Made by a program: the position numbers and the translations under genes. Of a stretch of 64,000 bases of DNA, positions 8,108-50,227 are shown piece after piece. This DNA comes from an uncultured Pelagibacteraceae bacterium (GTDB taxonomy: Bacteria; Pseudomonadota; Alphaproteobacteria; Pelagibacterales; Pelagibacteraceae): assembly GCA_902586485.1 (NCBI GenBank), contig CACIHO010000005.1, forward strand, positions 1-64,000, written 5' to 3'. A model generated the notes under the pieces. That model was not told the DNA's origin. It saw nothing but the letters and a program-made list of their open reading frames with translations, and did no database searches. The stretch's first letter is position 1. Every line of letters begins with the position of its first letter.

Positions 8108-8398
8108 TTACTTGCTTGAAATACCCATAATGTCAGACTCCTTCATTATGCTGTATTCTTTTCCATCAATTTTAACTTCTGTTCCTGACCATTTCCCAAA
8201 TAAAACTTTGTCACCAACTTTAACATCCATTGGAATTTTTTTTCCATCTTCAGTTTTCGCACCTCCACCTATGGCAACAACTTTACCTTCTTGAGGTTTT
8301 TCTTGAGCTGTATCTGGTATGATAATTCCTCCAGCAGTTTTTTCACTACTATCTAATACTTCTATTAAAACTCTGTCATGTAACGGTTTAAACTTCAT
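8108..8398 (-). CDS. groES: 10 kDa co-chaperonin GroES
   Basis: The lid subunit of the chaperonin, 96 residues from [10 protein letters not shown] to MGISSK. The mobile loop ([17 protein letters not shown], near 17-33) and the [14 protein letters not shown] block are typical. I chose the ATG at 8398 because AAAGGAG lies just upstream and the family begins there; the frame could extend 13 codons further but that stretch is not family-like. It forms an operon with groEL. Confidence 0.98.
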
Positions 8399-8434
8399 AA
8401 AATCTCCTTTATAAATCTTTATAAATATCTGCTT

Positions 8435-8463
8435 CATATAGATATTTCGCTGTCTATTTCAAG
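8435..8463 (-). promoter_or_regulatory. Candidate heat-shock-type promoter of groESL
   Basis: On the minus strand CTTGAAA (8463-8457) is followed after about 16 bases by CTATAT (8441-8436). CTTGAA is the usual -35 core of RpoH (sigma-32) promoters in alphaproteobacteria; the downstream box is only a partial match to CCATNT. It lies about 40 bases before the groES start. No CIRCE element (TTAGCACTC inverted repeat) is present. The assignment rests on motif resemblance only. Confidence 0.35.
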
Positions 8464-8474
8464 ATTAGAAACTC

Positions 8475-8495
8475 CTAGGTTATTAATATTCCTAG
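8475..8495. repeat. Inverted repeat CTAGG-N11-CCTAG between groES and the HAD gene
   Basis: CTAGG at 8475-8479 and CCTAG at 8491-8495 form an inverted repeat around an AT-rich centre (TTATTAATATT). It lies in the 131-base divergent gap between groES and the HAD-IIA gene, upstream of the possible heat-shock promoter. It could be an operator for either side, or chance. Confidence 0.3.
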
Positions 8496-8529
8496 TAAAT
8501 TAGAGATTTTATGGTTTATACCTTAAAAT

Positions 8530-9348
8530 ATGACCAAAAATTTAGATTTAAATGGCCTAAAATCAATAGCCGATAATTATGATCTTTTTTATATAGATTT
8601 ATGGGGTGTTATACATAATGGGATTAATCTTCATGAACAGGCAGTAGCTGTATTAAATGAACTTTCTAGAAGTAAGAAAATGTTTGTACTTTTAACTAAT
8701 GCTCCCAGACCAAACAAAACTGTTAGAAATTTTTTACAAAAAATGGGAATGAGCAAAGACTTGAGAGATCATGTATTTACTTCAGGTGAGGCAGCATTGA
8801 ATTATTTAAAAAAATTTTACATATCAAAAAAATTTTATCATATAGGACCTCCTAGAGATTTTGATTTGTTTAATTTATTTGGAAAGAATAAGTGCAAAGC
8901 TATAATAGACAGTGAATATTTATTATGTACTGGATTATTTGATGAACATTCGAAAGACTTGATTTACTATAAAAGTTTACTTGAAAAACAAATTAAAAAA
9001 AAAATGATTTGCACAAATCCTGATTTGATTGTTGATCGTGGTGAAGTAAGGGAGTTGTGCGCAGGTTCTGTTGCAATGGTTTTTGAAAAAATGGGTGGAG
9101 AAGTAGTATACTTTGGAAAGCCACATCCTGAAGTCTATAATCAATCAATAAATAATGAAAATAAAAAAATATTAGCAATTGGAGATAATTTAAATACAGA
9201 CATCAGAGGTGCAAATTTTTTAAATTACGATTCTTTATTAATTAGTAATGGAATACATAGACATGAAATTAAAAACAAAGGTATTCAAAATGTTTCAAAA
9301 GAGTATGAAGTAATAGTTAATTATATACAGTCAGATTTAAAATGGTAA
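8530..9348 (+). CDS. HAD-superfamily subfamily IIA hydrolase (TIGR01459-like)
   Basis: A 272-residue phosphatase-like protein. Motif I is YIDLWGVIHNG (near 21-31), with Asp23 as the expected nucleophile and a Trp where most HAD enzymes have the second Asp; this DxWGV form is characteristic of the TIGR01459 group. LLTNAPRP (near 54) is motif II, and GDNLNTDIRGA (near 217) carries the magnesium-binding acidic residues. The substrate is unknown. The final codons overlap the ribF start at 9342, suggesting coupling to flavin synthesis genes. Confidence 0.8.
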   Translation: MTKNLDLNGLKSIADNYDLFYIDLWGVIHNGINLHEQAVAVLNELSRSKKMFVLLTNAPRPNKTVRNFLQKMGMSKDLRDHVFTSGEAALNYLKKFYISKKFYHIGPPRDFDLFNLFGKNKCKAIIDSEYLLCTGLFDEHSKDLIYYKSLLEKQIKKKMICTNPDLIVDRGEVRELCAGSVAMVFEKMGGEVVYFGKPHPEVYNQSINNENKKILAIGDNLNTDIRGANFLNYDSLLISNGIHRHEIKNKGIQNVSKEYEVIVNYIQSDLKW

Positions 9349-49562: not shown

Positions 49563-49574
49563 TTGTAATAATTA

Positions 49575-49603
49575 ATTAGACTCCAAATGGATTCTTCGGT
49601 CAA
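49575..49603 (-). promoter_or_regulatory. ccrM promoter with GANTC methylation sites inside
   Basis: On the minus strand TTGACC (49603-49598) is followed after exactly 17 bases by TCTAAT (49580-49575), each one mismatch from the sigma-70 consensus. The ccrM ATG lies 12 bases beyond, implying a leader of only a few bases. GANTC sites fall at 49579-49583 (touching the -10 box) and 49590-49594 (spacer), with a third upstream at 49623-49627. Methylation by CcrM could therefore act on its own promoter. Confidence 0.65.
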
Positions 49604-49666
49604 CCTGAGATTGAAAAATATGGATTCGATTAGTGTTTTTTAATTAGAAGGAAACTAGATGTAGTG

Positions 49667-50227
49667 TTAATTTATTTTAGATATTGGTGAAAAAGTTTTT
49701 CTGTGATGTTTAGTAATACCTAATTTTTTCAAAGCTTTTAGGTGTTGTTTTGTTCCGTACCCAAAGTTTTTATCCCAATCATAACCTTTATTTTTTTTTG
49801 ATAAGGTGGTTATAAACTTATCTCTTGATACTTTTGCAATTATAGAAGCTGCCGAAATAGAGGGGATTTTTTTATCTCCTTTAATAACGGATTTTAAATT
49901 ATAATTTTCTAATTCTGGAGTTTTGTTTCCATCTATCAGAACGTGTGTTGGTTTTTTCTTAAGTTTTTTGATGGCTCTTTTCATGGCCAATAAACTTGCT
50001 TTTAGTATATTCAGCTTTTCTATTTCTTTGACAGAAGCTTTGCCTATGGACCAAGTAGAATTTTTTTTTATATATGTACATAGATACTCTCTCTCTTTTT
50101 TACTTAAAGATTTTGAATCTTTTAATAACTTTGGATTAATTGATTTTTTTAAAATTACTGCTGAAGCATAAACAGGCCCAATTAAACTTCCTCTACCAAC
50201 TTCATCAACCCCAGCAATTATTTTCAT
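49667..50227 (-). CDS. rnhB: Ribonuclease HII
   Basis: Cleaves at ribonucleotides embedded in DNA; 186 residues. The N-terminal active-site block is AGVDEVGRGSLIGPVYASAVI (near 4-24, DEVGRG), the next acidic residue is in THVLIDGNKTP (near 95), and ISAASIIAKVSRDKFI (near 125) is typical. It is upstream of ccrM, an order common in alphaproteobacteria. Its ATG shares one base with the upstream glycosylase stop. Confidence 0.96.
   Translation of the reverse strand: MKIIAGVDEVGRGSLIGPVYASAVILKKSINPKLLKDSKSLSKKEREYLCTYIKKNSTWSIGKASVKEIEKLNILKASLLAMKRAIKKLKKKPTHVLIDGNKTPELENYNLKSVIKGDKKIPSISAASIIAKVSRDKFITTLSKKNKGYDWDKNFGYGTKQHLKALKKLGITKHHRKTFSPISKIN

Follow-up and report, generated by a model that had tools for sequence, protein, structure and literature searches.

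SAR11 bacteria rank among the most abundant marine bacteria and possess few regulators. The window, i.e., the whole 64-kb stretch of DNA analyzed here, lies in contig 5 of a 1.07 Mb genome that is 79% complete and whose closest named records are Pelagibacteraceae of the SAR11 clade. It contains the GANTC methyltransferase gene ccrM, located downstream of the ribonuclease HII gene rnhB, and the gap between both genes holds three GANTC sites and a putative promoter (Table 1). Both the methyltransferase domain (PF01555, 231 bits) and the C-terminal RAMA domain (PF18755, 71 bits) of the full-length CcrM scored above their cut-offs, and residues 8–351 align with Caulobacter CcrM (6pbd_A) at an E-value of 5e-139. 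The score against the NCBIfam equivalog model NF050803 was 577 bits and thus below the cut-off of 830, with model positions 3–349 of 350 aligned; the name of the model suggests that this cut-off is tuned to Caulobacter-like enzymes. Regarding the neighborhood, ccrM and rnhB share a locus in 24 of 28 other families of Alphaproteobacteria (loci L214–L241), and the arrangement therefore appears to be old. A side observation concerns a single-contig genome of SAR11 genus g4 (L211 in G340), in which ccrM is represented by two overlapping pieces, the latter of which contains a stop; this copy may be frame-shifted or mis-assembled.

Table 1. Genes and promoter features at the ccrM locus (positions in the window; offsets refer to the first T of TTGAC on the minus strand).
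Feature	Position	Strand	Offset of start	Remarks
ccrM, GANTC adenine methyltransferase, 356 aa	48492–49562	minus		PF01555 and RAMA PF18755; match to Caulobacter CcrM 6pbd_A
ccrM–rnhB gap	49563–49666			104 nt; both flanking genes on the minus strand
Predicted transcription start	49568	minus		7 bases past the −10 box; 6-nt leader; inferred from the −10 position
−10 element TCTAAT	49575–49580	minus		fused with GANTC site 1; C at −11
GANTC site 1 (GAGTC)	49579–49583	minus	+20	TCTAAT begins with its T and C
GANTC site 2 (GAATC)	49590–49594	minus	+9	inside the 17-nt spacer
−35 element TTGACC	49598–49603	minus
TTCAATC block	49609–49615	minus		just upstream of the −35 element; near-invariant in the genus
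GANTC site 3 (GAATC)	49623–49627	minus	−24	upstream of the −35 element, ends 19 nt before it
rnhB, ribonuclease HII, upstream of ccrM	49667–50227	minus		PF01351; NF000595 above cut-off

A motif search confirmed the three GANTC sites that the preliminary description had placed in the 104-nt gap, and their centers (49581, 49592, and 49625) are 11 and 33 bases apart, as it had claimed. The elements of the proposed minus-strand promoter were found as well: TTGACC and TCTAAT are spaced by 17 nt. One of the sites overlaps the −10 box, another lies within the spacer, and the third ends 19 nt before the −35 element. An automatic scan for consensus promoters did not list this promoter and returned only another site at chance level, which is explained by its demand for A at the second position of the −10 element, where TCTAAT has C. 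We retained the promoter on the basis of its conservation (see below) and not of the consensus scan, and the conserved elements make a sigma-70 core promoter upstream of ccrM a well-supported prediction. The gap lacks matches to YGAKTCG, the extended GcrA motif (PMC7987155), on either strand, and none of the three sites fits it. Likewise, the CtrA box consensus TTAA-N7-TTAA (PMC4287350) does not occur within 49563–49666. The TTCAATC block and GGTTGAC form an imperfect inverted repeat. TTCAATC-N3-6-TTGAC occurs once in the genome as read, and the block was not seen in other alphaproteobacterial families; it may be an operator or binding site for another regulator.

GANTC is strongly depleted in the window, with 90 sites compared to a mean of 169 over 100 dinucleotide shuffles, all of which reached at least 90. 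Genome-wide counts covered 1,035,986 bases (97% of the genome) with 1064 genes called as long open reading frames, and revealed GANTC densities of 1.35 per kb overall, 1.33 per kb in genes, and 1.91 per kb between genes. The ccrM gap holds three sites where 0.20 are expected (Poisson P of 0.001 for at least three), i.e., 2.88 per 100 bases. A comparison with all other gaps, suggested earlier as a check, ranked it first of 219 gaps of at least 50 nt and second of 332 gaps of at least 20 nt; the sole denser gap, as delimited by the ORF-based gene call, has 23 nt and a single GANTC. Taken alone, the single-gap P-value is modest and not decisive across 332 gaps, which is what a functionless chance cluster in an AT-rich gap would have in its favor. 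Conservation in the genus and the class far above shuffles (see below) has already refuted this explanation, and its probability is negligible. The genome contains a single GANTC-N6-GANTC, and a backward-read control occurs at four forward and four reverse places; given this more frequent control, the pair is unique but not enriched genome-wide. TTGAC-N3-6-GANTC was found five times in the genome as read, being intergenic only at ccrM, and the longer pattern TTGAC-N3-5-GANTC-N4-7-GANTC is restricted to ccrM in this genome. Since an intergenic TTGAC with a spacer GANTC is confined to ccrM, the layout looks private to this gene in SAR11. We also considered a regulon sharing the ccrM-type layout within the genome and discarded it, as none of the other four TTGAC-N3-6-GANTC occurrences is intergenic. 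As read from the alignments described in the following, conservation is stronger evidence than these single-genome statistics.

For the comparison within the genus, 170 ccrM loci were used, 60 of them hand-picked down the identity ranking. We anchored 169 of the 170 loci on TTGAC and collapsed duplicates, resulting in 142 distinct promoters; the remaining locus (L024) has TTGAC and all three sites, and was left out as its short upstream stretch (the contig starts 106 bases upstream) lay outside the anchor window. The conservation of the sites across SAR11, which had been named as a check, was evident: the −10 site is present in 141, the spacer site in 134, and the upstream site in 117 of the 142 promoters, and all three kinds occur together in 110. 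In the region of the −10 element, GAGTCTAAT is identical in 139 of 142 promoters. Five of the seven TTCAATC columns are invariant, and the other two are kept in 140 and 141 promoters. The upstream site starts at −24 in 109 promoters, and the spacer site at +9 in 105 and at +8 in 29. Between clades, the spacer site thus shifts by one base while the −35/−10 frame and the place of the −10 site are fixed. The sites had also been described as spaced by whole helical turns. Strict phasing did not hold, as the two sites are 11 bases apart in 104 and 12 bases apart in 29 of the 133 SAR11 promoters that have both. Helical phasing was rejected at the level of the class, too, where 22 pairs are spaced by 9, 10, 11, and 12 bases in 6, 3, 12, and 1 cases, respectively. 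As the spacer site moved and yet was not lost, the constraint appears to be a GANTC in the spacer plus one on the −10 element, from which the 11-base phase follows.

From ten other SAR11 genera we fetched 30 loci, of which 29 were readable after exclusion of L212, whose upstream region is cut. A GANTC between +7 and +25 of TTGAC is present in 25 of these 29 loci. The positions differ by genus: the second-family genera g8, g10, and g11 have sites at −14/−15, +8, and +19 (in g10 in two of three loci), genus g9 has sites at −15 and +19, and genus g5 has its second site at +25. In genera g2 (2/2) and g4 (2/4), no site was found inside the ccrM promoter, and gcrA is kept. The two g2 loci (L196 and L197) represent a natural loss, with ccrM and gcrA retained and no GANTC within 40 bases of TTGAC.

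We extended the comparison to the class by a survey of 115 genomes, approximately one per family, 86 of which have a CcrM-like match (E-value of 1e-60 or better). Among the 84 non-SAR11 families with a ccrM match, 68 were examined, and 16 were left out (including G527). The 260 bases upstream of ccrM contain 213 GANTC sites in these families, compared to a shuffle mean of 70.5 and to 19 in coding windows of equal length; GANTC is thus threefold enriched upstream of ccrM across the class. Relative to TTGAC, the sites peak at +19 (27 sites), +8 (15), and −15 (15). TTGAC itself precedes ccrM in 56 of the 68 families (shuffle mean 14.9, coding control 11). Its combination with a −10 site, TTGAC-N14/15-GANTC, was found in 30 families (shuffle mean 0.11), with a spacer GANTC in 38 (0.33), with either of them in 44 (0.43), and with both in 25 (22–25 depending on the pattern used; 0.01). 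All three site types precede ccrM in 21 families (shuffle mean 0), and the coding-window control gave 0 of 68 for the site patterns. Neither a −10 nor a spacer site was found after TTGA in 23 of 68 and after TTGAC in 24 of 68 families. The suggested position of GANTC inside the core promoter is thus kept across the genus, in 25 of 29 loci of other SAR11 genera, and, by criterion, in 30–44 of 68 other families. At the level of sequence, these comparisons show that the GANTC sites are kept by selection in SAR11 and are widespread in Alphaproteobacteria. An economy specific to SAR11 was not supported; the layout is class-wide, and the class search ruled out a feature of SAR11 only.

The class promoters also reveal how the −10 site is built. 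All 27 promoters in the N14 register have A-NNN-T directly after GANTC, and at a 17-nt spacer this A and T correspond to −11A and −7T of a fused −10 element. The class signature is TTGAC-N14-GANTCANNNT, in which C is at −12. In the SAR11 genus, the site is shifted by one base from this register and C is at −11, which would imply poor melting without help.

The variable base of GANTC bears on what is selected. Binding of a protein to a motif that merely contains GANTC, with methylation being irrelevant, would fit the SAR11-genus −10 site, which is always GAGTC (G in 141/141), the +9 spacer site, which is always GAATC (A in 105/105), and the nearly invariant TTCAATC nearby; these two invariant sites are uninformative on selection for the motif as such. 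The base varies at the SAR11 −24 site (A65, G25, C15, T4) and at the SAR11 +8 spacer site (C21, A5, G2, T1), which fits selection for the methyltransferase motif and less easily an ordinary operator. It also varies at the class spacer site (GACTC 12, GAGTC 11, GATTC 9, GAATC 7) and at the class upstream site. With this variation, and with three separate copies in front of the gene of the GANTC enzyme in 21 of 68 families, we regard a methylation-independent binding motif as very improbable. A methylation-sensing core promoter at ccrM is the reading that these patterns support, and we hold it with high confidence.

The preliminary description had proposed a compact self-sensing loop in a genome with few regulators. 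A bare loop that works without a regulator was not sustained, as the genome encodes GcrA (G000, contig C12, positions 8361–8795; PF07750, 135.5 bits at a cut-off of 26.9), whose DNA-binding and sigma-interacting domains both align to Caulobacter GcrA (7ye1_G). It is known that GcrA binding is methylation-dependent and directed to m6A-marked GANTC, with mipZ carrying two juxtaposed sites (PMC3667746), and that GcrA contacts sigma domain 2 and stimulates open-complex formation (PMC7403470). Among 201 genomes of the same genus, many of them incomplete, GcrA was detected in 176 and CcrM in 151. PF07750 also scored above its cut-off in the control genome of Sulfolobus acidocaldarius, a surprising match given that the family is alphaproteobacterial. 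A search for CtrA resulted in four Trans_reg_C matches, for two of which a CtrA model was among the 25 families listed, with 126 and 34 bits at a cut-off of 350. CtrA was thus not found in this 79% complete genome, in which the Trans_reg_C proteins were checked against family models, and an absence of a ctrA orthologue has been reported for Pelagibacter (PMC2877005).

It is conceivable that no reader takes part and that m6A at the upstream edge of the −10 element and in the spacer directly alters binding or melting by sigma-70, thereby lowering or raising promoter strength. The overlap of site 1 with the −10 box is in line with such a direct effect, and the occurrence of the double site does not follow that of detected gcrA: at the class level, both sites occur in 18 of 54 gcrA-positive and in 6 of 14 gcrA-negative genomes, in a search that missed or split gcrA genes. 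We had also considered that the double site might be limited to genomes with gcrA; no association was seen, with gcrA detection being patchy. Furthermore, four SAR11 genomes of other genera without detected gcrA (G418, G204, G210, and G269) each have at least one core-promoter site. Against a direct effect, a reader of m6A-marked GANTC that touches sigma domain 2 (PMC7403470) is encoded in this genome and in most relatives, and only one of the three site types touches the −10 box. We consider a purely direct effect unlikely, and GcrA a likely reader of the sites in the methylation-sensing promoter.

A methylation signal is available in the lineage. That GANTC is methylated, a prerequisite of the earlier interpretation, has been documented for other Pelagibacter (PMC9516812), where methylation follows an origin-to-terminus gradient in growing cells. 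In one cultured Pelagibacter, 3477 of 3482 GANTC sites were fully methylated (PMC9516812). As far as this source was accessible, lasting protection of the ccrM sites is therefore unsupported, and there is room only for a short hemimethylated period. The unmethylated sites named for field samples in the accessible part of the same study are at sufE, groEL, and a ribosomal protein gene, and ccrM is not among them (PMC9516812).

Taken together, our best explanation is that ccrM has a sigma-70 promoter that senses methylation, with GcrA as its reader, an account that, as a whole, we rate slightly above even. Replication would render the ccrM promoter hemimethylated, and GcrA, bound to m6A-marked GANTC and to sigma domain 2, would open it together with sigma70. 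Newly made CcrM would then remethylate its own promoter, transcription would fall or be shut off, and the outcome would be one pulse of CcrM per replication. CcrM would probably sense and time its own production in this way. As SAR11 appears to be without CtrA, the ccrM promoter may be the main timing input. Regarding the sign, we infer that the promoter is active in the hemimethylated state and silent once full methylation is restored, and we consider this direction an even call, as signs differ among Caulobacter promoters: ftsZ is most active when fully methylated and ctrA P1 when hemimethylated (PMC8116508). Alternatively, GcrA could require full methylation for activation, so that ccrM locks on when methylated and fails when unmethylated. 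Such a positive loop has its model in Caulobacter ftsZ and mipZ, which are activated by methylation, with the ftsZ site being located between −35 and −10 (PMC3708114). However, hemimethylated DNA is the template for ccrM expression in Caulobacter (PMC2217572), promoters of this organism that carry GANTC between −35 and −10 switch on at 40–60 min of the cell cycle (PMC4287350), and a positive loop would leave CcrM unlimited, which together make it rather unlikely.

At the level of the class, TTGAC-N3-5-GANTC-N4-7-GANTC was found at 95 places, which are spread over 62 of 115 genomes, and the reversed pattern at 16 places; by coordinates, 24 of these 95 places immediately precede ccrM. We inspected 20 non-ccrM loci, which had been selected for a right half ending in GATTC, and in 17 of them (L343–L352, L354–L358, L360, and L361; class genomes, with the pattern around base 1001 or 1500) an ftsB-like gene (DivIC, PF04977) is directly preceded by TTGAC-N3-5-GANTC-N4-7-GATTC, a second double-GANTC pattern that recurs and resembles a sigma-70 promoter. 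A search for a second pattern at ftsB in SAR11 by tblastn yielded no convincing ftsB (best E-value of 0.28), and our literature search found no paper that treats ftsB, CcrM, and GANTC together.

We tentatively propose, at somewhat less than even confidence, that TTGAC-N3-5-GANTC-N4-7-GANTCANNNT, complemented by a third GANTC further upstream, is a module that was ancestral to Alphaproteobacteria and lets CcrM sense its own methylation mark via GcrA and sigma70. This module would be the class-wide default, with CtrA control of ccrM in Caulobacter as a later layer. SAR11, seemingly without CtrA, would time the GANTC mark by the module alone, and in other Alphaproteobacteria division would be linked to this signal through a sister double-GANTC promoter at ftsB. 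The locus offers a concrete promoter for the question of how SAR11 times methylation with replication without CtrA; for the class, it suggests that the gene of the enzyme setting the GANTC mark is under a conserved self-sensing loop, and a simple sequence signature would predict which Alphaproteobacteria use such a loop.

The GANTC sites of Caulobacter ccrM are located in its leader. Their presence in the promoter region and the methylation sensitivity of this promoter are already in print, and the class of mechanism is known from Caulobacter. In both organisms, a GANTC methyltransferase gene carries GANTC in its own promoter region, and self-limitation by methylation has been proposed for either (PMC2217572, PMC10073500). 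Caulobacter ccrM is driven by CtrA and transcribed only from hemimethylated DNA (PMC2217572), whereas no CtrA was found in SAR11, and the SAR11 sites lie in the −10 element, in the spacer, and upstream of the −35 element. In the accessible open-licence literature, we found no description of a SAR11 ccrM promoter or of a fixed GANTC/−10 fusion at ccrM across the class; an earlier study determined how many GANTC sites precede cell-cycle genes in members of the class, and its accessible part draws no conclusion on control (PMC2877005).

Another member of the GcrA/CcrM pair has a GANTC-rich promoter in Agrobacterium tumefaciens, where gcrA is preceded by six GANTC sites in 250 bp, is repressed by CcrM methylation, and is thought to be active when transiently hemimethylated (PMC11514494). 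This likeness concerns a different gene, and the accessible description gives no fixed geometry relative to −35 and −10 (PMC11514494); unlike in A. tumefaciens, the approximately 200 bases upstream of gcrA in the SAR11 genome contain no GANTC. The closest parallels are the Caulobacter GcrA/CcrM promoters of ftsZ, mipZ, and ctrA P1, which have GANTC between or near −35 and −10 in an organism that likewise encodes GcrA (PMC3667746, PMC3708114, PMC4287350). At ftsZ, the GANTC between −35 and −10 is needed for the methylation effect (PMC3708114), and the two juxtaposed sites of mipZ (PMC3667746) resemble those of SAR11 ccrM. Compared to these promoters, the SAR11 ccrM promoter lacks the YGAKTCG extension and has a site fused to the −10 element in a layout that recurs across families. 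Furthermore, its target is ccrM itself, which would close the loop, with dependence on GcrA as the prediction.
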